From assembly GCF_003073045.1 (NCBI RefSeq), contig NC_037590.1, positions 44,866,296 through 44,930,295 of the forward strand: a DNA stretch of 64,000 bases, in the 5' to 3' direction. The translations under genes and the position numbers were made by a program. Under the pieces are notes generated by a model that worked only from the letters and a program-made list of their open reading frames with translations, ran no database searches and was not told where the DNA came from. This document shows positions 18,943-47,700 of the stretch, piece after piece (the first letter of the stretch is position 1; each line of letters starts with the position of its first letter). This DNA is from Pomacea canaliculata. Its lineage: Eukaryota > Mollusca > Gastropoda > Architaenioglossa > Ampullariidae.

Positions 18943-21900
18943 ATGACGAGTGTGACAACATTTCTGTTTGGTCTGATCCTTGTACACAACATCGGTGAGT
19001 AAACATGTTTGTTGACTGCTGGTGACATGTTTAGCAGCTGCCTGGTCAGTGTCTTCACATGTTTAGATGTCTGTTCAGCACTAGTGTGGCTATAGTCTCA
19101 AGACCTTACATTGGGTTTATAGACTTCCTCACGAGAAGAGTACTGTCGGATCAACCTGTCTGTGTAATGTCGCCAACGTCAACACTCGATACATAATTAC
19201 TAATAATTAGGTCAAATACGTATTAAAATCAACGTAAAATCGTTCATCCGTTCACCTCTTATACAACCAAGGTATTATTCTGAAAAATAAGCCTAAGTTG
19301 TAGGAGATTATCAAGTAATGTATAGATACTTGTAATACTGTGTTGAGTTCAGCTGTCAAGCACACTCGTTTTCCAACCCCCTACCCCCAACAGGGCAATC
19401 AACAACTGTAATACCACAACAGATAATTAGGCTGCCTGCTATACCACATGAAGTATTGGTATAAGCTATTATAAAAAAAAGCCTCACAGATCCAAGAAAA
19501 TGTGAGAGTTAACACTGTCAGCCTAAACTTTTTTAACTATCATCATTTTTTCCATTTCAACAAAAGCAACAAGCAGCAAGAGCAGACTGATGGTTCTTCT
19601 GGTTCACCTTAACAAAGGTGGTTTTTTTTTTAACATTTACATTTAACAACAGATTTTATGTGGGCTTTTACAAGAGGAACTGAAAGGGGCCCTGAGAAGG
19701 TCACTAACTCTTACACACACATATTGTGAAGGCATTGTTGGAAAATGAAACATTCTGTCACATTGGGAATTCACTCAAAAAGCTATGAAATTTGATTTTT
19801 TAAAATTCAGGTGATGTGTAGTTGGTGATGTAATGAACCCCACTGAAAAAACATATTTTAAGGTAAAACTAATGTTTTAAGTTGATATGCTGCTTTTTGG
19901 TTGAGCAATTTTCCTGTTTAGATAGACATGCAGATATAAATTGGCTCGTACTCTTGTGTGAGTTCAGTAGAAGGTTTGGTTTACGTCGTTGAAAACCCCA
20001 CACATGCATTTAAGACTTTAACTTCTTGCTTTAATTAAGGATATGAGCATGATGGCTGGACATTGCATACCTAGATATGAGAGAGTGATATAAGGTGTTT
20101 CATAAAAAAAAAAAAGTAAAATGAACAATTTTGTGATCTACATAAATGAATCTGTATTTTTACTTAATAGATATTAAGAAATATGCTTACTTGAGTGTAA
20201 CAAACAGCAGTGAACAGTTGTGTTCATTTAATAGTATAATTAACATATCACCAACTTCATCCACCCCAATTTCATTTTAAATGCTGTCTTGTTAAAGCGG
20301 TAATTAAAGAGTAATAGAGCATTTTAGTGTTGTCGGTGCACAGACACACATTTTTCCTGCCCTTTTCATAATTGTTAGAAGACATTCCAGACAGATTTAA
20401 TCAGGAAGCTTGCTATAACCATAAAATCAACACATTTTCAGTTTGAAAAAAATATTTTATTCATGTGAGTTAATAAATGAAGCAGATAATGAAGATGACT
20501 GTTTACCCATTTATAAAATTGGAGGGGTTTAAAAAAAATCCTAGTTAAAAAATGTGAGAGGTTGACCAGCTACAGTAGAAAGTACACATCAATGTACCTG
20601 TGTTAATAGTATATTATATTGACCCCTGATGTCAAGAAACTGTTTTTGTTGTTATTACTATGTTTATATGATTGTAAAATTGTATCACTGTCAACAAGTC
20701 ATGATGAAATATTAGTATTTATGAGCCTGGTTTATTTAAAATGCCTTAAAGCAACCAGACCTTCGACTTTTTATGTCCTAAGAACCCTGACACCAGATTG
20801 TGTATGTTTTGAAATCAGCAAAAAGAAAAAATTCACTTAATTTACCCCTGTTCCCCCCAAAAAAAAATTTTACAACCATTTTAAAACGCCCTCAGATACC
20901 CTTTTTTTAGAGATTGAAAAAGAAAAAAAATTTGAATAACACTGAATTACTTTAGCAATTTAAGTTTGTGAAGCTTAGCACACACCAACACTATGATGAT
21001 GAAGGTGTGTCCGGGCCATGACAGTTTGGTGGTGAAGGCATCGCTTAGTTTGGATGATCGATGCCTTTTAGTCCGCGCAGTTTGCCGCAGTCGACATCTG
21101 GCACCAGACCAAGACTGTGTCACAGCATCGGTGAGTCTGCTGATGAGTCAGGTTGGCATTTCAACATCGCTCTGCCGCTCTGCACTCTGCCAGCTCTCTC
21201 TAACCAGTGCCAGCGCCTCACGAGTTTCGTCATCACCTGGACCTAGCGATCGGCAGGCAGTAGATGATAAACACAACACTTTCAAGAGTGGAATTCATTT
21301 TTGAAGAAAGATTAGTCATCTGACAAGCTAGTTAGACGACAACTGAAGAAGTGAGTCATGCGGGTATTTGTCAGACGACTGACTTATTTACAAAGTACCG
21401 ATGCCAGAAGACCACAGGTGAATCACTGATGGAGGAGCATGGCCTTTACCCTCTCAGACTCCTATACGACCTTCCTACCCATGTACTCGCGAAAAGACGA
21501 TTGGAAGCATTGTTGTTGAAGTGTTTACCACGAATGCTCTTTATACCTGCCGCCAACACTCGCCTCCGCTTTTTTTTTAAAGTGTCGATGGAGCATGTTT
21601 TTTTTTAAAATATTACAGATTGTGCGTCCTTCTCGTATGCCGGAAAAAATATTCACTGTGGTATGCCGTACAAATATTCACTAAGGCTTTTATTTCTTAA
21701 CGAATAGTAATAGAAAAAAGTAAATTCTTAACAAAAACCCACATTATGAAGAAAACAACAATCAAACGAGCATGAATTGAGACGTGTCATTTGCCATAGG
21801 TGCATCTGTCAAGAAACACTCATTTGTGGGATTCTTCCCAAAAGTCATCAATTATTGCATCTCTTTGAACAACATAGTCTGATGCCTAGTAATACACTGG

Positions 21901-24900
21901 TTTCATGATTCATGATTCTGAATAATACTGCAAACAGATAACCACGATCTGTGGATGTGGTTGTAACACTGCCTTCATATTGAGGAGTATTTTCTCACTG
22001 TAGCATGTTTCTTCTCCCTGTGAAATTCTCTTGTCATAATTTTTCTCCACAGACAGTTGATGAACAGGAGCAGATCTCCATTTTTATCGTGTGACATAGA
22101 CACTTGATGAGGAAGGAAACAATAAATAAAATGCCAGCGTGGAAGTATGCATTATAGAGATATCACATCTCAACTCATGCCCTGTGTCCATTGAAGTTGA
22201 CATTTAAGTTCAGTTGTCTCACATGGACATCTGAGATTGTATTTGGAATAAAATAATTTAACACAGATGTAACACCTACCTAAAATAATAATATCCTAAT
22301 ATCTTTAATCATCTCAATTTCTGATGCTGTCTGGTTTCAAGAAAGATAGGTATGCAGTATGCAATTGTCCTCATATGTACGGTGGACACTCTCCTGATTC
22401 TTCAGCCACTGCGCCACCAACCCTAAACTTACCATGTCATCAAGCTTATATTTTTATTATTAAATCCTTTTAACAAGGTTCTTGCGTGTAATTTGTGACA
22501 TTCCGGAACTATATGGTTCGACTTCTGCAGACGAGACCGACAGACATTCTCAGAGGATTTTATTTTAGCGACTAAATGGAAAGTGGATAAGTTCAGATTC
22601 CTCTCGTGCACCTAATTACAAGAGAACGATTATCTCCAGCAGCCGACAGGGCCAAACCCAGGGCTGCGCTTGTTTATGGGGCGGCAGGTCTCTCGAGATT
22701 CCGCCCGCCCACGGCCATGCACAGAGCGTGCAGTGTGTCGCACGTGCGTTCCCCGCTGACCTCTGAACCCAGCTTCCGGCAACTGGCACTGACTGTTTGG
22801 ATGCTGTGCGTGGCTTTTGTGCAACCCCGGGTCTAAGTTTATATCCCTGTGTAGAATCTAATAATGGCCGAGGTTTGTGTGCTCTCTGGCTGCTGTTGCA
22901 TATTCCACATTCTTTGCCATGTACTAAATTTTGGGGAATTACTGCTGAGAAGGGGAAAGGCCAAGGGATGCCGCAGCTAATTAAATCCCCTAATTGTCAG
23001 AAACTTTATAAAAACCGAGGAAGGGAACGCGGGGCGAGCAAAGTGGACCCTGTTCCCCACAGTAATAGTACTTAATCATCTTGTAGAAGGTTCTTGACAT
23101 GACTAAACCAATCTTGTTTTAATAATATACTACTAATATTTTTTATAAAGTGCTCAATAAACTGTTTGTTCTCAACGTTGACAATCAGGGAAATGAAAGT
23201 AAAGAAAATGACAAAATATTCAAAATGTAAGCCAATATCAACACAAAATAATAAATAAAATATAGCAAATGACATTCTAAGTAGAATTTCAAACAACGAA
23301 CCAATCACTATTCAAAACAATTTAAAAAGGCAAGCATAAAACACAAAATTAAATACCACAGAATATAAGTTTGTTTATATTACTATATTTATTACATAGC
23401 AACAGTTTAAAATCACAGTCTAAGTGGCTTTGTTTGCCTCACCCAGGGGAGCCTTTCGATGTTTACCCTCCTTCCCTAAGGTACACCACCGACCATCATA
23501 CCTAGCAGAACGTTAATTACACATTAATTCAGAAACTAATGACAGTGTTCTGTCGAGCAAAACTGGCCAAGTTTCAGCGGAAAATAAGTATCTTAAATCT
23601 TGCCCGAAAGAAAATAATAATAAATGTGGGATTTATACAGCGCATACTCGTAAGGAGTGTGCTCCTAGTGCTTGAGACAAGAGTGAGACATGAACAACAT
23701 ACAAAGGACGGAAGGATGAACAACAGTACTGATGATTAATAACAGACAAATACAGAGAACGCAAAGAGGAATCCGGTAACAAGAACTGAGTGTCGTGATT
23801 CAGGAGAGGAAGACGAGTAAGCAAGTAGTAATACACGGAAAGAGGGTGGGTGGTTGACAGAACTAGCTTTCTGTGGACTGATAGGAGTAATGCTCAAGGA
23901 AGAGATGTATTTTCAGTGCGCATTTAACAGATTCAGTGGTATGTAGGTGGCGGATATGGAAGGGGGAGAGTTCCGTTGTTTTTCTGCACAGTAACTAAAA
24001 GTCCTGTGACTGTGTGTTGTTCTGGTGACATGAATAGTGAGGATACAGTCATCAGACCAAGTTTCTGAATCTTGAATAGACTTCATTACAAATCACTGAT
24101 GAATAAATTACACTACTGAATTAAAAAAATCAAGATGATCAATTAACACACATACACAAGGGTCACCGTGCACCAAAACCAGTTTAAAACGATAATTCAG
24201 GAGCAGTCACACTACTATGTGCTGCCGGCGAAATAGTGATATGTCATATGTACATATATATATATTAACAAATGGAATGAATATTGTTATGATTGTTTAC
24301 AATTATCCCACTGAACCCCTGGTCCTGTGTGTGCGATGTGCAGAAGGGTCTAAAGATGGTTGCCCACCCATCGTTCAAGAAAGCTCGCACTTCGCCGAGA
24401 CCTTCGGCAACACCTGCTTCCTGTTCGTGGACGAGGAGGTCTACTGGAACGACGCCCGCGACAAGTGCTGGGACATGGGTGGAGAGCTGCTGGCCGTCCG
24501 CGACGTCGCCACCATGAACTTCATCAAAGCCACCCTGAACTCCAAGAAGTTAGGGTGGCGAAACCAGGGTGTGTGGCTGGGTGCTCGCTATTACAGTGGG
24601 AAGTGGAGATGGACCACTGGTAAGTACTTTCCATCCTCTTCCTTTCCCTCTTTCTCTCATTCACTGTTTTTTGGTTGCTGTTGTTGTTGTTTGTTGTAAA
24701 GAAGTTATATATATAATAGTTTACCCTTGCATGTAGATCAAGAGGCTAAGGATGCAGGGAGCGCTTCATGTTAAGGGGTGGGTAAAGTTTAGAATCAACA
24801 TTTTAAGAATATTATGGTCGTAACAAACAGTATTTGAATGTGGAGTTTGTCTTCCCGGTGTTGTCACATGGAAGCTTTCTGTGCAGGTGAGGCGATAGAC

Positions 24901-27900
24901 TTCCAGTACTGGTCGCCAGGGCAACCCAGCAAGATTCTGGGGCTGCTGTCCGTCGAGGACTGCGCGTTGATGCGGCGCGACGACGCATGGCAGTGGCACG
25001 ACTACATCTGCGGCAGCCTCAAGTTTCACTACAAGTACATCTGCCAGTTCCGTGAGTGCAATTTATATGCAAACTGGCCATTCCTTTCTGTGGGTACCCA
25101 CCATGTTTTCCTTGCTGCTTTGTATCAGTTGCCACCTCCTGCTGACCCCTCCCCCTGCCCTTTTGTCTGTTTGTCTCTCTGTGTGTGTGGAGAGAGAGGG
25201 AGAGAAAGACAACGAAAGAAAAAGAAAGCAGGGATGGGGAAATGGGGGAAAGACCATTGTGTTGCGCTGAGTGAAAACTAGCATGAGCTAAATCACGGGC
25301 TGCTCTACACATAACCAGCCGTTCTCCTGGCTTTGTTTTGCTGGTGGTGGTGTTTTATTTGGGCTTTCTAGTTCGTGCTGGAAGGAGTGGTTCTATCTGT
25401 CTTATCTTGGCCGGGAATTACCATGCAGATTGTGGGTGGGAAGGCAAGGTAAGCTGGGAGAGAGAATGTCAGTCAAATTCTGGTTTTCCTAGTCTTACTC
25501 TGGAAACTGATGAAGAATAAAAGAAGAAATACTGAGATGCGAAAGAAGATGAAGGATAATTCTTTAGGTGAAGGAAAGACAAAAGGCCTTAGCGTCCTTC
25601 AGACATTGACAAACAACATTGTTTGGCAGAGCGAGTTTGTCTTTATTTTGTAGGATATAAAAAACGGACACATGACCGGCTCTTGACAAAAGAAAATACG
25701 AAACAAATTCTACATTAGCCGGAAGAAAAAGTTGAAGTCTAAAACCTCTCTTCGTGTTTAGTAAAAAGCATTTTCGCGGGGTCGACTAAAACATTGCGTT
25801 GAAGACAGAGCGCTTTAGAAATGGCTTGGTCACCTTCCAGCATCGTGGGGACGGAATTGAAGTAAAAAAAAAAACAACAACAAAGAAACATGTGGCTGTG
25901 TCGGGAATGATTTCAGAGGTGGCGCTGATCGAAAACACGCAGCGCACGGATGGTGGGGTGGAGGTGGTCTGCGTGATGGGAAGCCGGCACCCTCCCTCTC
26001 CCCCCTGCTTTAGCAGAAAACTCACTTGACGGGTGTTAGAATAATATATCTCAACTTCCGTTGTGGATTTTGGGATGTTGAGAAGGAGAGATACAGTCCT
26101 TGTTGTGACATGGAGAGAAATCCACCTTCCCCACCCACACCCCCACGCGGACGTCACGCGCGCACATGAGTGTGCATGGAGTGGGAAGACATTCGCCACG
26201 CATTTACAAAGGATTCTTTACTACAACAAGGACTTAATTTACAGCCATCTTACAGCTACTTGTTATATAATGCCCCTTGTGTTGAAGGAATATCATAATA
26301 CACACATGTCATCAATACATTATCTCACGCCTCGTCAATATGGCCAGATGTCAAACACTCGTGATCTTATAAATATTTCAGGTATTGCCTGTTACCACAT
26401 GACATACTTTCAGTCAAGTTATTTATTTACACAATATATATATATGCCATAAAATAATGATTGTACAATAAAACGACTACGACATTCGCAAAGTATTTTT
26501 CCGAGAGTTGTGAATGGTGATTTGACTGACTCCCCATCCCTTCCCTCTCCATTTCTCTTTCTCTGTATGAGAGAGAGACAAAGTGTTGTATACATGTAAA
26601 CAAACCCTGTGGTTGGATTTGTGAGCAAAAGAAAAATTTCTGTCTTGGACTTCCTGGGACAGACAATAAAGTTTTATTTGATTTGATTGAAAACAGACTT
26701 GTACACCTTGTTCAGGTTTGTGTTTTGATTTGCTAGCATCTTTCTCGGCACTAGTCCGATCATGAAACTCTCGCCGATGACTGTGTGCTCCTGTAATGCT
26801 TATCAGGCCTTGTGAAAACGACGGCGGCGGCGGCGGCGACGACGACAACCTCCTCTACAGCAGTGACCGTCGCCGGTATCCAGGGTGACGGACAAAGTCA
26901 GAAGGCGCTGTACCTCAAAGGTCAGAGGGCGGAGTCCATGGTGATAGACGATAGCGTGGGGAGCGGGTTGTCCGGCCGCAGGGGTCACGGCACAGGTCAG
27001 TGGACGTGCAGGGGGCCGAGGGCAGCCTGTCTTCGCATCCTCCTAGTTTCATGGATGACTTGCAGCCTGACTACAGCTGCTTGCATGGCGGTCACTGCAT
27101 GACATAGGTCACCACCCTGCACTTTCGTTTCGTGGGTAGATGCACGAGACTTGCCCTCGTGGAGCGCATGTGCCTGTAACTGTTTCTTCTTCTTTTCTGC
27201 GACTGACCTTTTCTCTCGCTAATGCATGGTGGTCCATCATCATTAATATTATTTTCTGCATGCCGAGGCAGAACGTTTGTTTTATCGCCTGTCACGATTT
27301 GTCCCAAGACAGAAATGTGACCAGAACTGCTTAGTAATACAGATTAACGGTCTGAAAAAGTACAAGATTTTTTTTTTTATAATCAGTAGATTGAACTCGG
27401 TAATAGTATTTCCCAAAATAAATGAACGCGTTCGCCCTCAAAACTGTCTGGAAGATGCTCGGTCTGTGGTCCTGTCTCTGCCATGGGCTGTTCTCTGCAC
27501 GTGACACCTGTTTAGCTGCTTTGCCGGGATTATAACCTTAGTCGCTGGCTAAAACACCAGATCCACCCCACCTAATCCTGGCTATAGTCTTTACAACATA
27601 TGTATATCCATGGAGCTTGTGTAATATTTCTTCGCATGGTGATGCTCGCAATCTTCTATTCTTGAGAACGGGGAAATCCTCTTATAAACGTAGCTCTGTC
27701 CTTTGGGTGAAAAAGCACCCAGTAGTTCTTTGAGAATAAATTCTGTACTACCATTTGCTGATGTAATTACATAGCAGCACAGCTCTCAGGATGAAGTCAT
27801 CAGAGATGGACATCTGGGGTGCCTCCATTACCTGGCTGGGATGTGGATGCGGTTGTCAAAGCGTTTACTTTCTCTCACGCGCGTTTGTGGATGTGTTTAC

Positions 27901-30900
27901 AGGCGGGATTGGAGTGAGTCTGTAAAGAGTGTCTGTTGCAATAAACAGACAGCTGCAGCTGCAGACGAGAGAAACAGCGGATTATCACGAACTTGTAGAC
28001 ACGTCGGTGGTGTTATCTGTCCTCCTGCACCACTCGAGACGTCGTCGCGACAGCTATAAATAGCATTTGAGAGACGATAATGATCGATGTGGCGACCATG
28101 CATCTCAGAGAAGTTAGTTGAGGTCGAGACTAGTCGAGACAGAGCTTGAGGGCGCACGGGAGAGCCGTTAACATCACAGACGACAAGAACAGAGGTGGAC
28201 TTAGAAAGCAGAAGGAGGCTGGAGCACCTCTGGCTGATAGCGCGAGATGCGGTGAGCCTGATGGGAGCACCCGGCATCAGAGGAGGACACCAGCTCCCAC
28301 CCTGGCACCAGCCTCTGTGACACCATGAACGAGGAGCTACCAGAGAGCTATCAAAGCAAGTCCTGGAAGATCACTTGAACGTTCATTACTCTGTTTAATA
28401 AACAAAAGTTGATTAGTTATTTACAAAATGTTATCCCTATCATATCAATGAATGGCTTTTTATTTTCGTTGGATGATTTAAATCTTGCCCATTTTCAATT
28501 AAAATGTAAGGGAGAGATTTTCATTAGTCAGATTCTTAAGATCCACGAGAGAAATGGCATCTATGGACACTACCTCATCAGGTTTCATGTGCGCAGATAA
28601 TGTAGATGTGGTCTGGCTTTTGCATCTGCATGGGGAAAGCCTACATCTGTTAACGTTTTTAATTAACAAAGGTTTGCATCAAGTAAGGTTTAGCAGGCAC
28701 AAGAATTCAAAGAAACATGTCTTGCCCCCAGAAACAGCAGATTAAACTTAACAGCCTAAGTGGCTAGCAGGATTTCTTGCTTAGTGCCTGCGTCATCAGG
28801 CGCCTAACAGCCCTCAGAGAGATAGAAACCTTCCTTGTACAAATGTCACTTAGAAGAGAACAGAAGAGCTAGACCATGTAACTCCACCCAAACCTTTACA
28901 GAACATGAAAATCTGTTATGGGGGAAGGAGAGGTGTAAAAGTAGGGAGGTTCTCTGTACTCCACACTCTCTGCCCTACACTTTCTCTCCTCATCCTTTTC
29001 ACCCTCTTCCATTCCCCAGCCAGCTGTTGGTAGCAGAGGTGGGCTGGATGTGAAAAGGGAGGAAACTTGCCTAAAGCTTGAGCGAGACGCTCGACCTCAG
29101 ACATGCTTTCCACGCCATTAGACTGCCACACCCATAACACCCCATAGCAAGGGAGAGGACTGCCAGTGCTGTTCATGCCTTCTTTTCGTGAAAGAGGCTT
29201 TTAGTGTAAGATTGTTGCTTGTTTGCATATTTTGAGAGATTGGAAGAGAGAACTAAAAGGACAGATACAACTTCATTTGTTTTAGTGGAGGAATTCTTTT
29301 TAAACTTTTAGGGACAATGCAGGTCTAGCTTATTGTTTGAGGATGAGAGCAGTTATAACATACAGTATATATTTGTCTATCAGTGCACTTATCCAATTTG
29401 TTGAGATAGTTCAGCATACACCTAATATTTCTGATCCCATGTATTCTGTATTCTTCTACATAAAGGACCAAGAAATGGTGTTGACAGTACAAAAGTATCA
29501 TCAGTCTTTAGAATCCACTGCTGGACAAGTGGCGAGGGTGAGGGAATAGGAGCATTCTGTTGTCTCTAGCACATCTCTTGTGACCCTCCCAAGCACTAGC
29601 TGACCTTTCAGAGGCAGGCAATGTGGGTGTGGCTCCGGCTGACATGCAACCCAACCACCAGGGACCCTATATTTTATTTTCAAACACGAAAACGATGTAG
29701 AAGACCTGGTATAGATGTTAAGTTGTGGATGCTCTGTTCTCATGCAGCATGATGACATGAATGGTAGGGTTGTGAGAAGGCATGTTACAAAATATAAAAC
29801 TGAAAAAAAAAAAACGAAAAAGAAGAGAAAAAAAGGAAAAGCAGACTATGGCAGGATAGGTCTGTAAATGCAGCAGACATGGCAGCTTTGTTTGCATTCT
29901 TTTTCATTTCCATATGAGTTTTCAACATTTTAAGGTGACATGGGGTGCTAGCACCTGAACAAATATTTAGTGAAGCTTAATTAATAAGAAGAGGATGAAG
30001 GTAATAAATTTTGATGTAATAATATTTGATGTAATAATAGCTATTTTAAAAATGAGGTTCAGAACTGATAATTAACTTGAGGCCTGTTTGGAAGCCTTTT
30101 TTGAGTAGCAAAGGAGGACAGTCTTATGATGAGTCTTTCAGGATCCCACTTTCCACAATCAAGAAACGTGGCCTTGCACTATCTTCAAACTTAGTAGCTG
30201 AGCCACATGCCTCCTCCTTACTGTCTAAGGAATTACCATTGAAGGGTCTAGAGCGTTTTCCAGAATATAAGAATTGTTTTTGCCATTAAGAAAAATGAAA
30301 AATTCATTTCTCCTGGTCCCCACCTATCACAGAGTCCATCTAGGGGATGCAGCCAAGTGGTACCTTATGGGTATATCCAGCAGGGCTGCACCAGGGTTAC
30401 AGAAAAATATACTCTGACCCAAATAAGAGTGTGGATCAGATTGACCCAGACCGCAGCCTTCTAGAAGAGCTAGGGCATTGCACGACTAGCCGATTGATTG
30501 GTGTGGGACAGCACCAACCTTCTGTCTAGGAGAAGTCTGGGCCAAAGAATGCTGGTATGATAGGGTGCAACCCATCAGTGACCTTAGCCTCCAGGATCCC
30601 ATTCTTTCCTGACACAGGTCGCCCTGCACAGCAATCGCAGGGGGCCTAAAGAAGAACTCTGAGAAAACAGAAATCATGAAAGACAGAGATTTGTGGGAAA
30701 TATTGAAAAAAGGGAAATGACCAAAAGGCAGAGGATAGGAAAAAACCGACAGTAGAAGAAATAAGAGTTTTAATGATTAAAGGAGTAAAGGTTAAAGGAC
30801 CTGTGAGACAGAAACAAGTACAGTGAGGAGGAAAGAGGCAATGTACAACAGTACAACAGTGCATGTGTCTTGTTTTCCATGCTTTGTTATGCTTGCCACT

Positions 30901-33383
30901 GCATGCTTTTTTTCATATGTTTGCAGGATACACTTTTTTGAAGTCATTGATAGATGGGCATAAACAATTACACATGATTTATGCATGAACCCAGCTGCAT
31001 CCATGTATATTCTTTTATTCTTCCTCCCTCTCTCTATTCCTTCTCTCTCTCTTTCTTACAGGCATTCATTCACCAAAGAACTAACTACTTGCTTGAACAC
31101 TGCATAATGGGAAAATTAACCTTCTATGTTCCAGCCTTCAACTCTATCTACCAACATGCTGCTCACTCTTCAGCTGCAGCAGAAGACAATGGAAACAGTA
31201 AGTGAAGAGGAGTTTCAAATATTGGGAAGCGTAATTAAATCTTTAGCACTTATGTGAACATAAAAATAGTGAATGCTGAGACCATTGGTGTGTGTGCGTG
31301 CGTGTGCAGGAGTGTGTGTGCATTCGAGAATGTGCATAGGAAGGAACGCAAGCAAGTGTAAAACCATTGTTCGTATAATGAGCATAGTAATGGTAATTCT
31401 TATACTGTGCATGTTCTAGTGGAAGGTACTTGCCACTCACGCATACACACATAATGAGTGGTGAGCTGGTAAATTCGCAAACAAGCCACATCGCTGTTTA
31501 AACTTGCAGGATTTAAAACTGGGGAAAAAAGTCTCAGCTTATAATCCGAAATTTATGGTATTTCTGAATTGACTTCATGTATATGTATATGCCAGTCTTG
31601 ATCACCATTGTTGTGTTTAAGGGGAAATCACATGTTTTTAGTGGCAGACCATTGTGTTGACCCTGGTTTTAAATGCTGACTTTATAGCATACTTTATAGA
31701 TTTATTGTACCATTCCTCATGCAGTTCCTCATCCTTGTTGATTCCCGAATTGACAACTGCATGCTTTTAGCATGTATCATGTATGTGCGGTTTGTGTAAA
31801 GCACTCTGAGTTTGCCTTAATGGTGGAGAAAGGTGCTATAGAAATCATTGTCATTATTATTATTATTCCTGAACATCATATTGATTGTTGTGCTTATGGG
31901 GGTCATTGTGTGATTTCAGTGGCAATCTTGACCATCATACTGATTGTTGGAGGCATCATCCTTCTGGGGCTGCTGATTGCCTTCCTTGTTGTTCGTAGAA
32001 GGTCAGTACATTTGGTTAATGATACTACAGCTGTAATGGTGCTAATGACATGTGAAGGTTGTTGACAATCGTAGTGACAGTGGAGGTAATAATGCTGATG
32101 ATAACGTGAGCTTAAGTATCATTACCATTTTTCTTGTAGGATAGCTGAGGAAAGAAGATAACACTCCTGGGAACATATTCATGAAGTGAGAGTAAGTTAT
32201 TGCCCTGGGAGCAATGGGGAAAATCAAAGACAAACTTCTTGTTGCAACTATAAGAACACACTGTCCCGACCTCCGTGGATATTCCTGTTTCACTTTTCCC
32301 CAGAGAATCTTTGCTACTGCTTTATAATTATGGTCCCGGGGTAAGGCAACATCCTTCGAGTTGGGATGTAAGTTTATTTCTCTGTAGACAAGATCTTTGA
32401 TTTCCCCATTTAGCCCTGTGACAACAACTTACCTTCACTTCATGGTATCATTGTTAAGGCCAGCTACGTAGGTTGAAATCATATTTAGGGACATGTACAA
32501 GTTTTTTTAAGAAAAATGACATAAGGCTTAATAGTCACATGCACAGAAAAGGATTTCTTTATGGACTTCTTACAGTTGTAAATGTCTGAGGAGAAGTTTA
32601 TGCAAGCCATTGCATGTGGTAGGAGTGTGGTGTGGTGATAATTGTAGCAATGGATAATGATTAGTGGTGAATGGCCTCAACAAAAGATGCTGTATGTGTG
32701 GCAATATTAAATTATGTGTCTGTAGATAGAAATCTTTCATAAAATAGATGAGAATCAAGTCTGGTTGTCTTAAACAGGTATCAACACGCACTCAAGCACA
32801 TCGATGTGAGAGAAACAGTAGTTCACTTTGCTAATCGATCCTTCACCTCTGCCCACACTGTGCTAGCTCCTCCACCTGCACCCCACGTTTTCTCAGCCGC
32901 CACGAAGACAGTTTGTACCTGACTCCTGTGGAATCTGAGTGTTTCTATGAAGAGATCAAGAAGCCAGAGACTCAAAGGACCGATTGCATCAATAAAGACT
33001 TTGACAGCTTTCAGGAGACTGTCCCTCTTGCCTCAGGAGGACTTTGTGCAGGAGATGTGGGAGCCTGTGGGATCACGCTAGATGCGTTTGATGATAGCCC
33101 TGAGCTCCCACTGGTCTCTGCTGGCTCAGCCAATTCTATGGAGAGCCTGGACAGCTCAAAGGGCAGTATGAAACTGAAACCAGAGAATGTGCACAATGAC
33201 TACGTGGATATGAATGGCATGGCGGTCATGAGCAGCAAAGACAGTAGTGGCACAGCCAGCAAGGAAAGCTTGCATGGCAGTACTTTGAATGCAGAGGGTG
33301 GCAAAGCAGCTGTGCAAGATGACTACTACTATGTAAACACCTGGAAAGGTGCTCAAGAAAATGTGTATGAGGCTCTGCCCTGA
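18943..33383 (+). CDS. Transmembrane C-type lectin receptor with multi-tyrosine tail
   Basis: Seven exons: 18943-18994, 24344-24619, 24887-25051, 26807-26995, 31135-31197, 31920-32001, 32897-33383. Introns 1-5 are phase 1 and intron 6 is phase 2. The total is 1314 nt, exactly 437 residues plus stop, with no frame conflict. Residues 1-17 are a signal peptide. About 24-164 form a long-form C-type lectin domain with six cysteines (C24, C42, C59, C135, C151, C162) and VWLGAR for the WIGL motif. About 165-248 form a Thr/Ala-rich stalk. About 249-273 are one membrane helix followed by RRSR. The 160-residue tail has Y283LTP, Y293EEI, Y378VDM, Y421VNT and Y433EAL. The protein should sit at the cell surface and signal through tyrosine phosphorylation; this is inference. 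The stalk exon at 31135 is the least certain: it was chosen by phase and splice sites only. No orthologue name is recognised. Confidence 0.82.
22378..22435 (-). mobile_element. Possible tRNA-derived SINE remnant
   Basis: On the minus strand this reads GGTTGGTGGCGCAGTGGCTG, resembling the A-box head of tRNA-derived SINEs (TGGCGCAGTGG). No clear B box or tail follows, so it is a fragment at best. Confidence 0.35.
23610..24060 (+). repeat. Dispersed repeat, mollusc-type (TTTATACAGCGCATACTC family)
   Basis: The stretch begins with ATAATAATAAATGTGGGATT, continues with a GCGCATACTC segment, and near 23900-24000 has GGCGGATATGGAAGGGGGAG. I recognise this arrangement as a recurrent non-coding repeat of mollusc genomes from general knowledge only. 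Related but shorter fragments occur at 37610-37720 and 51795-51880 in this window. Confidence 0.45.
24344..25051 (+). other. C-type lectin domain (two exons) lacking canonical calcium-site residues
   Basis: The exons 24344-24619 and 24887-25051 encode the whole fold. Where sugar-binding lectins have EPN or QPD, this one has GQPSK. Where they have WND before the fifth cysteine, it has QWHDYIC. The six structural cysteines and hydrophobic core (WNDARDKCWDMGGELLAV, VWLGAR) are kept. The fold should be sound, but calcium-dependent mannose or galactose binding in the usual manner is unlikely. Confidence 0.8.
25052..26806 (+). other. Third intron of the lectin receptor
   Basis: Intron between the lectin domain and the stalk exon. 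A Pu/Py-rich tract lies near 25140-25240, and a tail-like stretch GACAATAAAGTTTTATTTGA lies near 26660. No coding exon was supported. Open frames here lack plausible splice signals and composition. Confidence 0.45.
26996..31134 (+). other. Fourth intron of the lectin receptor
   Basis: A 4.1 kb intron. Besides the SINE tail near 27500, a block at about 30300-30660 has the look of an older repeat or processed sequence with no recognisable protein. Two purine-rich runs occur near 29800-29850. No coding exon fits. Confidence 0.4.
27500..27575 (+). mobile_element. SINE 3' tail fragment
   Basis: The segment TATAACCTTAGTCGCTGGCT followed by AAAACACC matches the 3' part of the SINE at 51002-51168 (TATAAAGCCTTAGTTGCTGG, then CGTAAAACATC). 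It is an isolated tail without the tRNA-like head, inside an intron of the lectin receptor. Confidence 0.5.
31770..31870 (+). repeat. SINE/LINE-type tail ending in ATT repeats beside the membrane-span exon
   Basis: TGTGTAAAGCACTCTGAGTT, then GGTGCTATAGAAATCATT and an (ATT)n run, is the widespread AAAGCGCT...GCGCTATAAAAAT tail found at the 3' ends of many SINEs and LINEs. It ends about 50 bp before the 3' splice site of the membrane-span exon at 31920. Confidence 0.55.
31920..33383 (+). other. Membrane helix and cytoplasmic signalling tail exons of the lectin receptor
   Basis: Exon 31920-32001 encodes ILTIILIVGGIILLGLLIAF, a single membrane span, then RR. Exon 32897-33383 encodes the tail, rich in Ser, Asp and Glu. 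The tyrosines lie in recognised SH2-ligand patterns: FYEEI (Src-family), YVDM (PI3-kinase p85, YxxM) and YVNT (Grb2, YxN), plus YLTP and YEAL. These are pattern matches made by eye. Confidence 0.8.
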
Positions 33384-36300
33384 AACGGGAAATAACTGGA
33401 TTCGCTAGAAGCAAAATATGAAATAGACAAGCCTGCTGACAGGGTATCATCTAGAAACTGCTGTTCTGTGCTCTTACTACAGTGATTATTATATGACAGT
33501 TGCTTGGACCCATCAACATGCTGTTCCTTAAAGTTAAATGCAGCAGATGTCATACATAGCACCAGGTTGTGTTTTAGTCTTTGCTTTGGCAGTGCAGTTC
33601 ACTTTGCATTGTACTTTCAGCCTGTTGCACTGGGAGTCAGCATACCTGAGTAAGATATTGGTTGAAAGAATCATTAGATAGTCCTTCTTGCCAGTTAAAT
33701 CTAGAACTCTATCACATACCTTTTAACGACTTAGCAGCGGTATAGAGTTCAGTGAAAGCAAACACCGTCACTATAAAAGCAGCATAGTGCAAATGCATAT
33801 TAGGTAGTACTTACCAGGATGCCCAGTCTCAGTAGAGTTCTGACTCTTCCAGCTATTATTTTTAATTGTCAGTGTTTGATCTGTCGCTTCATTTAAGGTT
33901 GTGAGCGTGTCTGCTGCCAGATGTTTATCCCTATCTTCCCCTTCTCTTCCTGTTTCTTGTATTTTGTGCTCACATAAGATGTAGATAAAAACAAACAATA
34001 TGGATTACACAGTGTGGTTAACATATTGTCTCCCTTTTCCCCCAGATAAATGCACATCACCACATTCTGTTTTATTTATGAGCACTCCAAATTTTAAGGA
34101 GAATTTTAGGCAGTGCTTAGTATTAAGAATATAGGCTTCAACTGAAGATGATTAAAAAGTCAAAGTTCATATAGTCATGTTTTATTTTAGTCATCCATCT
34201 TTCCAATGTCCTTGTTAAATTCAAGTCATTTTATACATGTTTTCAGATTTCTATGAAGCTATGAACAGCACACAGTTTGAAATTGGTGCATGGCTAATTG
34301 CCATTCATTTGCATGAAGGTATATATAGATATAGAAGCATTTTTCTTGGAAAAAAAACAAAACTATTAAAACACCATAAAATATTATTTCAACCTTTTAA
34401 CATAGAAGACTTTTCTTGTTGAGAAGACCTTTTCCTTTTTGAATTACTAAATCAGATTGAAAGTTATGAAATTTGAAAAAAAGACTTCTTTCTCTAGCTA
34501 AAATAGCTGAACCGTCCTGCACAGATTCTGGGAACTACAGGGTGTTGTGTTTTTTTTCTTGTTCTTCGGGGTTTTTCCCCCACAATAGTCCACAGTTTAT
34601 GATAGTTTTGATGTTCTAGTGTTTGTAGAATGAGCACTAACCACTTTGCTGCTTCTAGGTTGTTTTTTTTTTTCATATTTATACATTAGTGCTTGACTTC
34701 AACCAAAGTATTTTTTGTTTTATCATTTACTGTAACATAACGTGGTCATTTGTCTCTTGATTTGTATTTTAACCTGTGATAATGCTAGTTTTGTCTTGAT
34801 TTTGCGCTTTTTATAACCTGTGATCATTTAATGATAGTATTTTATCAGATAGGATGACCCCATGGCCAAGATAGTTAAAAAATCACATACTGCCACAGTG
34901 TTTGATGACAAATTATTTATGTAAAGACATGTCTTTTTAAAGTTTGAACATCCTTAATTTATAAAAATTTTCTTGTCGTCTGTGTAAAACATGTAAGTAA
35001 TGATAAACATGCCTTGAATTATTTTTTTTTTACATCAGTATTCACAGTAAAGTCAATCTGCCTCTATATATCTCACACACATTTGAGTTGTACGTAGAAA
35101 CTTTGGCCATCAAGTAGATAATATGAAAATCAGGCACAGAAGGTCAATTGGGATTTTCTCAGAACTTTGTACATTTGTGCACAAACTGCAACGAACTGTT
35201 GATTAATGTTCCCATAAGAGCTCATGTCACTTCATAATTTGTTAAAGGAGTTATGTACTGGTAACTGCTGCATGACTTTTATCATTGACTGGGTTCCTCA
35301 GCGGCATTACTGGTTAATGTGTGTATTGTTTCTTTGAGTTTTACTGTCTGGTGAAATATGCATGCAATAATGTTCTTAAAACATGTGCACTGTGTATATA
35401 TATATATGTATATAGTTGCAGCACAAAAATATCTCTATCAAAATTATACAATCCATGCTGGAGACTCCTAATTGGTAGATTTCTGCTTAAAACTTTTGTC
35501 TTTCTGCTTAAAAATTATTAGACTTTCTATTAATGCTACATCTAATTTCCTGATTTAGGTTTCCAATTTCTTGTTCTAAGTTGGAAATCTGCTTAAGAAC
35601 CCCCACAGAAATTTTCAGGTTTTTTTTTTTCCACAAGCCTTTTCCAGCCTGACATAGTCTTAAAGCAAATTCTTTCTTTGTGTCTTCCAGGAGTTATTAT
35701 CGGATGAAATCATACTCTTCATTGTTCATTGTCACCTTACATCAGATTTTATTTTGGGGGGAGGGAAATTGTGGCAATTGCATGGATGTGTGTGTGTATG
35801 TTTGATATTGCACATGCATGAAAGTTAATACCTTTTCATGCACAAGTGTTATTGGTCCCTGCTGATTGTGTGCAGTCAAGGTGCAAATTTACCTGCAAGA
35901 TTATGCCTGTAAATTCTGTCAACTGAGATGTCATATTTCGTTTGTTTGACATAGTCCAGGAATTTTGCTTCTTTGATGAATCATTCTTCCCCAGTCTTCC
36001 CCTGATCTAAATTAGCATCTCACATGGTTGTTGTTGACACCTGCTCTTGTATTTTCAGTTCCCTGAAAAGATCAGGTCTTTCAGATTGCAAGTCTAGTGG
36101 TTAATATGATCTCTGATACTATTAAATCTTTTCACCACCCCAGCTGTTCACATGCCCTACAGAACTTGTTCAGGACTGCCTATCATGCGCAGCTTTAACT
36201 GGCGGCTGGCTATCAAGATGGAATAATAATAATGTGAACTTATAACACACAGCATCACAAGCAGGATTGATAGCACTCTCTGTGCAGACCAGTCATGATA

Positions 36301-38630
36301 AATGAAAGATAACAGCCAGTGGACAGTGAGTATGTATAGGGACACTGAACAAAGAAAGATGAGATACTAGAGCAGAATATAACGTGCAGTGTGTGATATA
36401 CAAAAAGACCTGAATAGCCATTCGTAGACCCCCATATCATTTGTGTTGTAAAGTTAATTTGTTACAGTGTACTATAATTGTCTTTGTCTTTGGAAAACCG
36501 ATGAAAAGTAGCTAACCAGAACATCTTCAGGTAATTGTCATGCCAAGTCCATACATAAATTTGTGTGATTATAACGCAGTAATCATCACACTTAATGAAC
36601 CGTCATTGATGAGTACAACACATCATGCAATGTCTGAAAAGAATACTTGTTAAATGCCTAAGACTTGCAGAGTTTGTACAGTCATTGACTTGAATCACCC
36701 AATACCCTCCATCCCCACGAGGAATCCAGGATGACAGCTTGCTGACAAACATGAATGGGTTGCTCATTCCATGCAGGACCTGCTCACCACTGCTCAAGAC
36801 AGGCTTGAGTGGTGAGATTTGTCAGCCATTGCATCTGTCCAGCTGTTCCCCCAACAAGAGGTACTAATGAAGCCGGCATAACAACTCATCAAATGGTACC
36901 AATGTTGATTAAGGGATGTATGTCAATGTAAAGTGGTCTAAAGCAAGATCAAGTTATCCTAAGAACACTTGAAATATGGAAAACCTAATGCCTAATCATT
37001 GGCATGATGTGAGACTTAGAGCAGAAATTTCTGTTTCAAATAACTTGGTTCTCTTTTTTATGCTCCACTAGTCCATTCTCAAGTGTTTTACTTCAAAAGG
37101 TCATGTTTGTTTTCTGTACAATTGAAAATAATTTTACGTACACATTCATTCCTATTGCATAAATTCCATTGTTGTGCCAAAACATTTATCAAATTTTACT
37201 GTACTTTTGTGTTGAATTTTAAAACAAGTTTTTGCATAAAAGCCCTACAAATGGTGGTTGCAATGAAAAAAATTTCAAGTGGCATTTTTTTTGTAAAAAA
37301 GAGGGCAGAAAATGTTATTTTTTATTTTCAAAATTTTGTTTTCATTCTTTTTGTATAACTGATGAATCCCAGTATGTATAATAATAATGATTTTACCTGT
37401 CAAAGTCAAGGGCTCCCACAAAATGATATTAAATTGACTTTATGCCAGTGATTACTGGGAGTGTGTAGGTACAGTATATTTTTACTTTGATAAACTCAAC
37501 GTGTATGTTGCTAGTCACATTTTCATATGCACATGGTAGCAATGACTGAATAAAGAAAATATGGAAATTTGGCAGTCTGTTTTAAAGAATGCAAGTTTGT
37601 AAAAAGTATTTTAAAATAAAATACAGATATTTATACAATGCTTTCTCACAGCACTGGAGGGGGAGCTCAAGGTGCTTTATGTACATCAAGGTGCAAGAGC
37701 ACACACCAGAGACAGCAAGATTCATGAAAGTTAGAATCATCTGTAGAAAACCATCAGCATTCAGTAAACTAATGTAACATCTAGAGAAGTGTATCTGGAG
37801 GCGAGATCTGAAAATACTTTTACTGTGGTGACGACTGGTGCTTTAGCTGCATCAATGACATGTAAAGAGGTGCATACATACACACTTATGCATGCTCACA
37901 CTTACACAAACACATAGAAAAATGAAATTTATTCTGTAAAGCAAGGCTGACAATGCAGCTAGAGCACAGTTTTGACTAAGTATTGTCTACAGCCCCAAAA
38001 AAATGAAAACCAAGGAAGATTTTCACATTAAGTTCAAATATTGCAGTCTAATATCCAATAATTGTTGTGGAATAAAAACTATGTAAAATATCTGTGTGTT
38101 TCTCTCACGCATGAGTAAACAAACAAGTACTTGTATTCATACATAGATAATTGTTCATGCATGATGAGGAGATGATAAAATATTCAAAAATTCCTATAAC
38201 TACAAAGGCGAATTACAGCTTGCACATTCATCTATTGCCTACTGAATATATCCATGAAATACAAATTTGTAGGAGGAAAAGGGAGAAGAGGTAAATGAAG
38301 TCTAGGAGAGAAAAACTCCAGTGTCTCCAGGTGAATGAACAGTTTTTCTATTCAAGTAAAAGCATACCTGACAAAACATGAGATACTTAGTACAAGAATA
38401 CAAACATCACCTTAATAATTTACAAGCCATTTGTTATAAGAGTATTTTACAAACATAATTGTGCATACTTTACTTATAAGAACACTAAGCATAAATCACT
38501 TAACATCAAAAGTTCTGTTGTAATTATATCTGGAGAGGATCTTATAACAATAAGATAAGCAATATGGTTTTAAAATTAAAAAAAATGTAGGACATACTTA
38601 GGCGAGACAAATGTGATACGAATTTAGCTG
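33384..38630. other. Lectin receptor 3' UTR and intergenic region
   Basis: AT-rich sequence between the convergent lectin-receptor and annexin genes. A late AATAAAG at about 37549 could end a very long 3' UTR, but earlier ends are equally possible. A repeat remnant lies at 37610-37720. Nothing else coding was supported on either strand. Confidence 0.45.
37610..37720 (+). repeat. Dispersed repeat fragment (TTTATACAATGCTTTCTCAC)
   Basis: Resembles the same family as 23610-24060: a short ATATTTATA lead, a GCTTTCTCACAGC segment, then GGTGCTTTATGTACATC. It is degraded and probably not recent. Confidence 0.35.
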
Positions 38631-38762: not shown

Positions 38763-41700
38763 CTAATCACAACCCACAATTTTCTGAAGAAGCTTCTTGA
38801 AGTTGAAGCTGGTGTCTTCTTTCAGCCATCGCCACAGTGTCTTACCTGTCAGTTTCAGGAAGCATTCCTTAATCTGCACCATATCAATCTGGAAGAATGA
38901 GAAATGGGACAAGAAAGAGTTAAAAGTGCCACATTAATAGACAAAGTTTATTTTTCATCAGAATGACAAGAAACAAATCTCTAGTAACATTATAACATTG
39001 GACAAAGCCCGATATATCAGGCATAGGGAAAAATGTTTACAACATATTTGTGAATAAATGCGAGGAAACTCTCCCAAGTGTTTTCATGTCTAGTCCATTA
39101 CAGTGATGGACCAATCTATAAATCATATCTTAGTGTAACCGACACATCTGTCCCTGATGGCTACGCAGGGGTAGGCTAGTCACAAAAGAACACAACAAAA
39201 ATTGCAATGGCCTCACAACTGTAGATTTCATTAAGAGTTTCACTTGGCGGCTGGCCTGCCTTCTCCCCACTCACTTCCAAAATCAGAAAGCTTCCCAAAA
39301 CAGCAAACATATCCAACTTATCCTATCAAACATTTCAGCAACCATCCTTCCCTTTTCCCACAGCCTGGTTACCTAACCTTAAGCCTTCCCTGCCTCCATG
39401 GCAGCATTGACCTCCCCCAGTCCGGACTTCCTAGCCTTGCTAAGTGTGTGTGTATGTGTGTTATAGTCCTAAAGGTGCATATATAACCCTCATCCCGCAC
39501 TGTCTGGTCATGGCCTTCCCAAGTGGATCAGGTGAATTCACATAAAACAATAGGTCCAGTAGACACTAGCGGGACAGTTCAAGGTTGGCTATTATGTATG
39601 CAGCAGGCGTAGGAAGGGACAGTCATGGGAGTCGTTTCACCACTACCCTCTAAAAAAATAAAGAAATAACTTAGTACACTACTAGAGTGCTACATTAATC
39701 AACTTAATGTTATACTGAAAATTTGAAAAAAGAAAAAAACCAAAGAGGGGTGCATTTGGACCTAACAGCAACATCTGTATAACAAGCAGTATAACAACAT
39801 GGAACACAAAATTTGATCAAAGAAATATTTCTGTGAACAGATTGAGATTTATGTCAACAAAAATATTTATAGTTTAGAGTTATTTATTAACACTGCTAAG
39901 AAAAGTTGCATAACTCTTACAGCAAAAAGCACTACAGACAGTTAATTTTAGAATCTTAAAACTTCCTATAGTAACAGAGATTACACCTCTTATCCGAGTT
40001 TACCTCACTTCTGGAAACAATTACACGGATGAGGGTGCGTTCATCCGTTCCCAGACCCTTCATGGCAGCTTGAAGTCGCTCAGCAAAGAACATGGGGCGG
40101 CAGCGAATGTTCATTACTATGCACAGATTAGAAATGGTTCTTTGGCATGTAAGTAAATGCTGTAAAACAAAATGTGCAGCAGTTCAAAAGATATTAATAA
40201 AATTCTCTCACAAGCAAATTCTTCAATTTTTTTTTTAACAGAGATATAAAGCCCAAAACTAAAGATGTTTTGATTCAAAATTTTTATTCTGCTCTATTCC
40301 TTTCAATCAATTTTTTAACATTGAAATAAAATTAATGGATATAAAAACAATATTTGAAAATGTAGCACTCAGAATGGGTAGAAAATATATAGCAACACTA
40401 TGCTAAACAAGGTGTTAAACCATTTATGGGGAGAAACAAGCAGTAGAAAAGTACTAAATATACCTTATATGCTGACACACTAAGCTTCAAAAGGAAGCAG
40501 ACATAATGCCAACCGACACAAAGAATACAAGCAAAATTATCACAACAGGTAGTGCCAACTAAAAGGATGTGAAGATTTGCCAGTGCTTATAACAGCAAGT
40601 AGAGGATTAACTTACCAATGGCACGAAGTCCATTTCTGAAATCTCCAGATGTTTCACGATCAATGCTATTGAGGATGTCCCGCTGAGTAATCTGAAATTA
40701 TGATTCTGAGTTTCTAAAATATGTGATTGAAGAGACAGGTGAAATAAAAAGCTTAAAAAATAAATGCTGGCAGCAAGTGGTCTCTATTTCTAAGATAATG
40801 CTGTTTACTGCTTTGAACCTTTATATTATCTTGCCTGCTATCTTCTATAATAAAATACACTAAACACAATAATGTTTAAGTGAAATTTTTTTTTCTTAAG
40901 AATAAAGATTCTGGTCTTTCTAAGTTTACTTAACTTAAGAATACAACAACCAGACATGAAACAGACCCTACCTTATCCAGAATCAATCATGGCTTCTATG
41001 AAGAGGTTGTCAGAAAACCCTACCTTCACATATTCATTCCATGTAGCTCTCAGTTGATAGTAATCACGAGTAGAAAATATGCGGTTAAACGTTTCTTCAT
41101 CTGTTCCCCAGCGCTTTTCACCAGCATCGTTCAACTGTTGGGCCTCACGCTTGGCCTGCTCAAGGTCACACAACTTGTTATAGTTCACCTGGAACATACC
41201 TGTGCCTTCCTTTGCTTCTGGATTTCTAATTTCTTCTACAGCTGCTTCCAGTCGTTCCACTGGTATCTCATAGCGTTCTCCCTGCAGGAACGCCAATAAA
41301 TACATGGGTTAATGGACCTTGGAGATTATACAGATAAACAAATATCTGTTATTGCTCACAAAAAATATTTGCAAAGATGTTTCTGTTCATTGGCTGAAGA
41401 ATGAAAGATTTAGTTACAGTTTATCCTGTTTCCACGTCATCTATTTTCTCAGTACCAGCACCCTGCCAACAGCAAATCTGCTCAGCGTATCTGATGCAGC
41501 GGAATATTTGTATGAATAATTTAAAAAATGAATAGGTTGAGATCATGGTGAACTGATATCTCTGTTGAGATCCTGGCACTGGTTAATAATACAGATTAAA
41601 ATCCAAAAGCTGAACTGTTACCTAGCCAGACAGATTTGTTTCTGTACAGTGTAAAATATAGCTTCTTATGTATGGCAGAGAACAGAAGGAAAAAGTGTCA

Positions 41701-44700: not shown

Positions 44701-47700
44701 TTTTGTAAATGGAACATTGTTCTTTTCTTATATTATTGAAATTAGTAACTTGTAATGAATTAAACACACTCATCTGTCTGCAATTAAGCCAGCCTTTAAA
44801 CAAATGTGAGGATCCAAATGTCTGTCAGTATTAAAAAGCTAGGTCTTTACCCATGGTTTTTCATGGGTTCCCAAAGAGCCTGGGGTTTAGATCTGTAGAC
44901 ACAAACAAAAGTGAGAACTGTATAGTCTTTAACATAAGTTCTTACCCAGTCCTTTCATGGCTGCTCTCAGGTACTCGCAATCAGCTTCCTTGTCCCACTT
45001 ACTCTTGGTCACATCACGACCCCTTTCCTTCTTATTCCATAAAGCAACAGGATCCTTATCTGTGTACATTTCAAATGGCTTCACTGTGCCCTCCGTCATT
45101 TCAAATGTACCTGATACCTTTCTCGCCTGATTAGCTCACTGACAAAGGCCTGATACATCTGCTCCCGCACCTTGGCTTTCACCTCTACTTCAGAAAGTTC
45201 CTGTGAAAAATACAGAGGTCTGTTAAAGAACAAAACTTCAGAACCTTTATTTTAAAATCAACCAATTTTAGACCAAAATCTGCTCATATTTTGAAAAAAT
45301 CCCACTTATTATCCTTAGTCAATATGGATGATTGTAAGAATGGAGAAGGCATTGGAACCTTTCATTAATATTATATATATTATGTTACATGGGGATAGGA
45401 GAAAAAGGACAGAAAGGCTTTACCAGAGGTCACAGCAAGTTTGGTATGGGGGAGGAAAAACAAAAAAGATGTACCAGAAGCAGACTCACAGCAGGTTTAG
45501 CAAGAGAAGGTTTGTCATCCTCTTCCTTGTGCTTTTTTTCTTGTTTCTGGTGCCTCTTCATAAATAAACAAATAAATAATAACATTGTTTGATGAAGAAG
45601 CAATATTCCCTGAACATTGACATGCAGTGCATATATACCATAAAATGTGTGCATGTGTTTGTGTGTATACAAGTTAAACTTTGTAACCAGTGGATACATG
45701 TGCTACCTGGTTGCTGTTATTGTATGCCTTTGCATGTTTCCTTGTTAGCCAGATTGACACACTGCAGATCTGACACTGCAAGAGCCATCAACATCATCAT
45801 AAGCACTCATCTCAACACCACCATCGCCAGCAATTATTACATGTACATGTGTGTTTCTTACGGCCATGGGAATGACAGCTGGTTTCTTTTTCTTCCTATT
45901 CACCCCCAGTGGAGCATAGAGCCACTACTACACCACGCCATCGGATCTGGTCCTGGGCGTCCATCTCCAGTTGTGACCTTGTCATGCTATCACCTCGCTG
46001 TGAACATGTCTGTCTGGGTCTCCCAACCCTGCACCTCCCCTGTAGATTCCAGTCCAGAGCTTGTCTCATTGAATTGTCGGCTGGCTTTCTCAAGGTGTGG
46101 GCAATCCAGCCCCACTTCCGCTTCTTGATGTCTTGGCTAGCAGGTTTTTGGTTGGTTCTCTCCCACAGGTTTGTATTGGAGGTCTTCTCAGGCCATCTGA
46201 TGTTGAGGATGTGGTACAGACATCTGTTGACAAATGTCTGAATCTTGTTGGTGATGGTGTTTGTCACATGCCATGTCTCAGATCCATGTAGAAGGACTGA
46301 TTTTATGTTTTCACTGAAGATGCGGATCTTAGTCTGTAGAGATAATGCCTTGGAGTTCCAGACAGGTCGAAGAATATGGAATTCAATCCTACGTTTATTT
46401 GGCTGCTTACATCTTCATCTGCACCTCCATCTTTGCTGACTATGCTGCCAAGGTAGGTGAAGCAGTCGGTCTCTGTAATACTATACTCCCCATGTAGTTG
46501 TAGTGGGGCTTCTTGCTTGTTGTTGACCCGCATTACTTCTGTTTTCTTGATGTTGATTGTCAGGCCAGTCATCGCTGCTTCTTCTGAGAGCCGAGTGAGT
46601 TTTGTCTGTTCATGCTGCTGCTTGTGGGACAACAGGCTGATGTCATCTGCAAAGCCGAGATCCTCAAGTTGCCTGGCAAAGGTCCACTGAATGCCCGTGT
46701 TGCTGTTAGAGGTTGTTCTTCTCATGATCCAGTCTATGATCATCAGGAAGATTGTCAGTGAGAGCATACAACCTTACCTGACCCAGTCCTAACTGCAAAG
46801 GGGTCAGTCATCTTCCCGTTGTAGATCACCTGGCATGCTGAGTCCTCATATAACTGGATGATGGTAATGGACTTTAGTGGAAATCCACTTAGTGCTGCAT
46901 CAACTTTCAGGCGGTTTACCTGTCTACGGAGTCAAAAGCCTCCTCAAAATCCACAAATGTCATGTAGAGTGGCAACAGCTGGTTTAGATGTGATGTAATC
47001 CTCCATGCCACCATTTTGTCTTGGGAGGCCTTTGCCCCTATATACAAATGTTTGGTTTTCTGATTTCCAAGTATTAAGTTCAAGCTACAAGAATGTCATC
47101 AAAGTTATATTTTGTGAACCTGAAAGTGAGCCAGAGTTAGTACGTCAAGAATGCAGAAGCCTCCATGAAACACACTGACTTCATGCTGGATCAGCTGAAA
47201 TGCACATTTTTGGAGTTTTTGAAAATCTGTGAATGGAGACAAATGTGTGAAACTGTCTGTATTACATTTTGTTTACAGCTGCACATATACTAAAACACTG
47301 GATGCACACACACACACAAAAGGATGAGGAAGACACAAAACTTAAGCCTCACATGTTTGGCAGAGGCAGCTTTGTCACTGTCTTCTTCCTCATCTGATTC
47401 CTCTTCTTCGTGTTTCTCTCCACTGAACCTCCTGTGGCGTCTATGCTGTTGCTATGAATACAATCATGCATTGTGTACACTATCCAAGAAAGATGGGGTC
47501 TGATACACAGTATGGTACTAGTCCTACCTGTATGGTTATTAATGCTAAGCTGTCAGCTGTCATCTAAATTTAATTAAATATGAGAAATTTAGCTTAGTTG
47601 ATTTTAATTATCCAGCTAACCACTGAACCTGGTTCCAAACATTTTTATGTAAAAAAACAAATGATAAAGCAACTAAAATATACATGTGGTATTCAGCTCA

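Follow-up and report, generated by a model that had tools for sequence, protein, structure and literature searches.

Can a single mollusk gene supply a C-type lectin receptor that signals through its own cytoplasmic tail? This question is raised by a 64,000-nucleotide stretch of the Pomacea canaliculata genome (contig NC_037590.1; the whole stretch is hereafter referred to as the window), in which a first-pass annotation had read a lectin domain, a membrane helix, and a tail rich in tyrosine motifs as one self-contained receptor that needs no adaptor chain. Our analysis leads us to favor, at roughly even confidence, the view that the gene encodes a type I receptor at the cell surface, of the kind represented by the oyster lectin CgCLec-HTM, and that this receptor would signal by itself without an adaptor chain.

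Gene model, lectin domain, and membrane helix

Six plus-strand exons, when joined, give one reading frame of 416 residues plus a stop codon:

18943-18994 (+): exon 1, which supplies the start codon and a likely signal peptide, MTSVTTFLFGLILVHNI (in-frame ATG; hydrophobic core judged by eye)
24344-24619 (+): exon 2, phase 1-1, within the Pfam Lectin_C match
24887-25051 (+): exon 3, second part of the C-type lectin-like domain (CTLD) with QPS and WHD, phase 1-1, Pfam Lectin_C
26807-26995 (+): exon 4, stalk, Ala/Thr-rich at its start, phase 1-1
31920-32001 (+): membrane-helix exon, VAILTIILIVGGIILLGLLIAFLVV, residues 228-252, located by hydropathy
32897-33383 (+): tail exon, 487 nt, with the stop codon at 33381-33383

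All six exons are open in this frame and together encode a Lectin_C match, a helix, and the tail, which bears out the annotation in that lectin domain, membrane helix, and tyrosine tail lie in one spliced frame. The first four of the five junctions are in phase 1 and the last one is in phase 2, and the tail exon lies within a stop-to-stop ORF of 182 codons that ends at 33383 on the plus strand. We infer the linkage of exon 1 to exon 2 from phase. The product of exon 1 is likely a signal peptide, as judged by eye; a scan of this segment for 19-residue windows with a hydropathy of 1.6 found none. When the spliced protein was compared with the window by tblastn, only its own exons were matched, the short helix exon being missed. 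A search of the window against Rfam and a search of phage records each returned zero matches. The gene model appears coherent and describes a type I receptor that has one CTLD and ends in a tail with tyrosine motifs, the six exons presumably being joined by splicing.

Splice sites were scored with splice-site frequencies and ranked against all GTs and AGs of the window. The donors of exons 1, 2, and 4 and of the helix exon rank in the top 0.3 to 1.2% of GTs (those of exons 1 and 4 each in the top 0.7%), and the donor of exon 3 ranks in the top 8%. Among the acceptors, that of the tail exon (32897) is in the top 1.6% of AGs, and weaker ones precede exon 2 (top 12%), exon 3 (5.6%), exon 4 (8.9%), and the helix exon (15%). 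In addition, we computed a codon score, for which 1300 codons from other ORFs of the window served as the training set. Exon 2 scored above all 1000 stop-free background draws, which came from only 4 distinct background ORFs; P was 0.041 for exon 4, 0.15 for the helix exon (i.e., weak), and 0.34 for exon 1 as well as exon 3, both of which have a codon bias at background. In each of exons 2 to 4, a stop-containing frame equals or beats the coding frame, and the coding frame of exon 3 has the lowest score of the three; the helix exon and the tail exon score highest in their own frame. The codon score is of little help and leaves the gene model unsettled.

The window contains several further features. 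Upstream, an ORF with ankyrin repeats is found at 6208-6522 (+) and a long low-complexity ORF, the first 62 residues of which have no Pfam match, at 11542-13179 (+); both perhaps belong to a MASK/ANKHD1-type gene. On the minus strand, an annexin exon at 40973-41308 (Pfam E 2.2e-9) marks a downstream gene on the opposite strand, and a reverse transcriptase fragment lies at 46303-46773 (RVT_1 E 4.1e-8); by eye, an ORF at 45896-46414 may share an element with this fragment. A large inverted duplication spans 52857-59799, with five arm pairs of 267-461 nt that are 92-98% complementary. It holds two opposed ORFs, 53813-54295 (-) and 58385-58903 (+), whose product would be small and hydrophobic and would begin like a signal peptide (MKSLVLILVLAAASMSAHVPEER), and a Pfam search with the plus-copy ORF (58385-58903) gave zero matches. 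Near the end of the window, the minus strand carries a weak match to a POT-family transporter (PTR2, E 1e-4), whose 21.8 bits fall short of the cut-off of 27.

Residues 51-164 of the spliced protein match the Pfam Lectin_C profile with 42.3 bits against a curated cut-off of 22.6, which places the domain in the C-type lectin-like domain superfamily. The ectodomain has six cysteines (residues 24, 42, 59, 135, 151, and 162), and the cysteine set expected of a long-form CTLD is present. A search for N-x-S/T sequons in the protein found none, and a match of an NCBIfam polycystin model to the CTLD region, with an E of 2.2e-5, stayed below the cut-off of that model. Matches at an E of 0.001 or lower were obtained for 95 distinct PDB sequences. 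Among the best 60 of these 95, LY75 (30.8 bits for its best stretch), PLA2R, and MRC2 owe their place at the top to the summed scores of several domains each; these proteins have many CTLDs, whereas the Pomacea receptor has one. The single-domain chains of CD23 (41 bits), Mincle (39.7 bits), and the bivalve lectin codakine (38.5 bits) have scores that lie close to one another, and the PDB matches therefore name no nearest relative.

Two tripeptides of exon 3 bear on the ligand:

24922-24930 (+): QPS, residues 122-124
24994-25002 (+): WHD, residues 146-148

Classical sugar binding is not predicted, because QPS and WHD replace the EPN or QPD and the WND of the classical primary calcium site. The pair would still allow microbial binding, since CgCLec-HTM, which also has QPS/WHD, appears in a table of bivalve lectins with four bacteria, LPS, and peptidoglycan as ligands (PMC12842671). 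In the same table, inhibitory sugars are given at 100-200 mM for MmCTL5 (QPS/WND), and some WHD lectins are listed as calcium-dependent (PMC12842671). By analogy with these lectins, ligand binding of other than the classical type is possible.

Residues 228-252 are the only region of the protein with 19-residue hydropathy windows of at least 1.6, and none of these 25 residues is charged. Receptors that pair with adaptor chains usually carry a charge within the membrane helix. The helix region also matched an NCBIfam PVV-CTERM model, with an E of 0.13 and below the cut-off of that model.

Tyrosine motifs of the tail

The tail comprises 163 residues with 7 tyrosines, which occur in YLTP, YEEI, YVDM, a YYY run ending in YVNT, and YEAL. 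Each of these motifs had been named in the annotation, and all are present in the translation of the tail exon:

32916-32918 (+): Y262, YLTP
32946-32948 (+): Y272, YEEI (Src-family SH2 type)
33201-33203 (+): Y357, YVDM (p85 SH2 type)
33330-33332 (+): Y400, YVNT (Grb2 SH2 type), third tyrosine in DDYYYVNT
33366-33368 (+): Y412, ENVYEAL, the only hemITAM-like YxxL

Motifs of the YEEI, YVDM, and YVNT kinds are matched by the SH2 domains of Src-family kinases, p85, and Grb2, respectively, and their presence on one tail is suggestive of composite SH2 docking. We estimated the chance of such motifs with 100,000 composition shuffles of the 163-residue tail. Taken singly, Y[DE][DE][ILV] had a P of 0.031, Y..M of 0.20, and Y.N of 0.30; YVDM and YVNT are thus each within chance. 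At least one each of the three occurred together in 0.13% of the shuffles (P 0.0013), a value that is optimistic because the three motif classes were chosen post hoc, after the tail had been seen.

Scans of the tail for the ITAM (YxxL/I x6-12 YxxL/I), the ITIM ([S/I/V/L/T]xYxx[I/L/V]), and the ITSM each gave 0 matches, and a hemITAM scan gave one loose match, ENVYEAL, with DEDGYxxL absent. A comparison of the tail with the PDB yielded 4 matches, the best with an E of 0.39, which we took as chance. Among viral contigs there were 5 pattern matches, none confirmed, and among prokaryote genomes 24, one of which was confirmed. The latter, L001 of Cryobacterium, has 28% over residues 61-142 and an E of 5e-5, a value that refers to the candidates only, and was judged a chance match of low complexity. 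A tail without relatives in viral contigs and prokaryote genomes is expected, because this is an animal gene.

Given these motifs, we postulate the following course of events. The single extracellular CTLD, with its non-canonical QPS/WHD site, would bind a ligand, perhaps a microbial surface, while the plain hydrophobic helix would serve as membrane anchor. Clustering of the receptor would lead to phosphorylation of the tail by Src-family kinases, after which phospho-YEEI and phospho-ENVYEAL may hold Src-family or Syk-type kinases, and phospho-YVDM and phospho-YVNT may hold PI3-kinase and Grb2. As the tail would dock all of these partners itself, we propose that the receptor could signal without an adaptor chain.

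The same tyrosines can be read in another way: in a layilin-type endocytic or adhesion receptor, they would direct sorting as YxxPhi signals and provide anchorage to the cytoskeleton rather than dock SH2 domains. We consider this somewhat unlikely. The tail has four YxxPhi matches, and at least four such sites arose in the shuffles with a P of 0.033. Layilin, a vertebrate lectin of CTLD group VIII, is described as a type I protein of 382 aa that has a single CTLD and a tail of 126 residues, its ligands and partners being hyaluronan, talin, and ERM proteins, and its tail motifs YNVI and YDNM are described as YxxPhi (PMC12703705). The Pomacea receptor has this layout, i.e., type I, one CTLD, similar size, and a long tail with a YxxI plus YxxM (YxxPhi) pair. 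Against this reading, YEEI is a strict match to the Src-family type (P 0.031), and the tail aligns with that of human layilin no better than shuffles do (P 0.27 in 2000 shuffles for a local alignment and 0.50 in 1000 for a global one). A likeness of the tyrosine blocks seen by eye failed in this alignment, and layilin orthology was rejected. The CTLD scored 67 against that of layilin, with a shuffle maximum of 51 (1000 shuffles), which reflects a shared superfamily only. The layilin sequence used in these comparisons agrees with the published description in its length (382), LAYILI, YNVI, and YDNM, and its C-terminus has no PDB match. The annotation had known of no vertebrate lectin with a comparable combination of parts; layilin weakens this claim as far as layout is concerned (type I, one CTLD, YNVI and YDNM in the tail), although the two tails do not align.

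It is unlikely, in our judgment, that the receptor works through Syk only, with Y412 EAL as a non-classical hemITAM, the remaining motifs being incidental. YEEI is a better fit to Src-family SH2 domains, and ENVYEAL, a loose hemITAM, is without the acidic DEDG before Y412. This reading does agree with YVDM and YVNT falling singly within chance, and also with the oyster precedent, the tail of CgCLec-HTM being reported to bind the Syk SH2 domain via a non-classical ITAM (PMC13027682).

Possible optional and alternative exons

Three further candidate exons on the plus strand would alter the product of the gene:

31135-31197 (+): optional cassette exon, 63 nt, 21 residues, frame kept; acceptor in the top 3.2%, donor in the top 3.4%
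31062-31197 (+): alternative exon, 136 nt; acceptor of 14.6 bits, top 0.02% of AGs
32140-32191 (+): candidate alternative exon, 52 nt; acceptor in the top 1.9%, donor in the top 3.7%

The annotation had described seven exons and 437 codons. This frame was reproduced when 31135-31197 (codon score P 0.08) was inserted, which gives 437 residues, but the seventh exon is optional, as six exons give 416. Since the cassette shifts the numbering by 21, Y293, Y378, and Y421 of the 437-residue form are Y272, Y357, and Y400 of the 416-residue form. Every GT donor in 26807-27199 was paired with every AG acceptor in 30900-31189, with the donor after 31197 fixed. The frame remains open in as many as 53 of these pairings, among them five that use donor 26995, and exactly one pairing (26995 with 31135) gives 437 residues; because so many pairings remain open, an open frame is weak evidence for the cassette.

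The acceptor at 31062 is the highest-scoring among the exons tested. Exon 31062-31197 was rejected as a plain seventh exon, because the frame breaks after 26995; it was kept as an alternative. An ATG at 31107 in this exon is in frame with the membrane helix, and a lectin-less isoform via this acceptor is a candidate. Taken further, the locus might produce split transcripts, in which 31062-31197 starts a lectin-less membrane protein or read-through of exon 4 gives a secreted lectin. This we hold to be quite unlikely. The strong acceptor at 31062, out of frame with exon 4, speaks for it, as does the read-through of exon 4, in which the frame continues for a further 35 codons and an AATAAA lies at 27417; 3' of the tail exon, at 33384-37000, there is no AATAAA and only three ATTAAA are found. 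The AATAAA argument is weak, however, because this hexamer occurs 75 times on the plus strand of the window. Exon 4 passes to the exon at 31920 from phase 1 to phase 1 in one clean frame, and the reading that begins MGKLTF... is without an obvious signal peptide and has a codon bias at background, all of which argues against split transcripts.

With exon 32140-32191, the protein would end in ...VVRRRIAEERR, followed by a stop, without the tail tyrosines. A total of 14 site pairs in 18.9-33.4 kb, this one included, reach the same thresholds, so the exon is a lead only and a short-tail isoform is speculative. Rather improbable, finally, is an adaptor-free scaffold resembling CD19 or IRS, neither ITAM, ITIM, nor hemITAM, which would gather Src-family kinases, PI3-kinase, and Grb2 on one tail beside a CTLD without classical sugar binding, with exon 32140-32191 swapping in a short silent tail.

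Comparison with oyster receptors

The self-contained tyrosine-signaling receptor that the annotation had proposed is plausible by analogy with receptors of the oyster. One CTLD, type I topology, an uncharged helix, several motifs, and the Syk precedent of CgCLec-TM1 and CgCLec-HTM are in line with it; YVDM and YVNT at chance level, a non-classical QPS/WHD site, and tyrosines that also read as YxxPhi detract from it. A role as innate immune sensor is likewise plausible. If the favored reading, a self-signaling receptor of the CgCLec-HTM kind, is true, such transmembrane C-type lectin receptors extend beyond the oyster, with a richer set of docking motifs, and the question opens of whether, in invertebrates, lectin receptors are coupled with PI3-kinase and Grb2 besides Syk. 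If the tail motifs prove unconserved, the gene would be just one among many gastropod CTLD genes, of which more than 100 are given in most cases (PMC10140915). Among the literature matches listed, by titles and abstract openings, there was no gastropod receptor with such a tail, which is weak evidence of absence.

In two reviews, the Pacific oyster receptors CgCLec-TM1 and CgCLec-HTM are described as binding LPS and bacteria and as associating with Syk, which leads to ERK and IL-17 (PMC13027682, PMC12842671). In the case of CgCLec-TM1, a transmembrane mollusk C-type lectin, Syk is reported to be bound by the receptor's own tail (PMC13027682). The original source for CgCLec-HTM, as cited in the reviews, is J. 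Immunol. 2019, 203:1845. A C-terminal membrane helix is said to single out CgCLec-HTM among single-domain lectins, and ScCTL-1, which has four domains, also has such a helix (PMC12842671). In the bivalve lectin table (Table 4 of PMC12842671; 48 rows counted by eye), QPS occurs in 3 of the 48 rows and WHD in 6, and both occur together only in CgCLec-HTM. The Pomacea receptor and CgCLec-HTM, as tabulated, have in common a single CTLD, a C-terminal membrane helix, and QPS plus WHD, a likeness that rests on two tripeptides and the layout because the two were compared by description. The tyrosine tail of CgCLec-HTM is reported to bind Syk itself, and p85 and Grb2 motifs go unmentioned in the review passages on it, whereas the Pomacea tail carries YVDM and YVNT besides YEEI and ENVYEAL.
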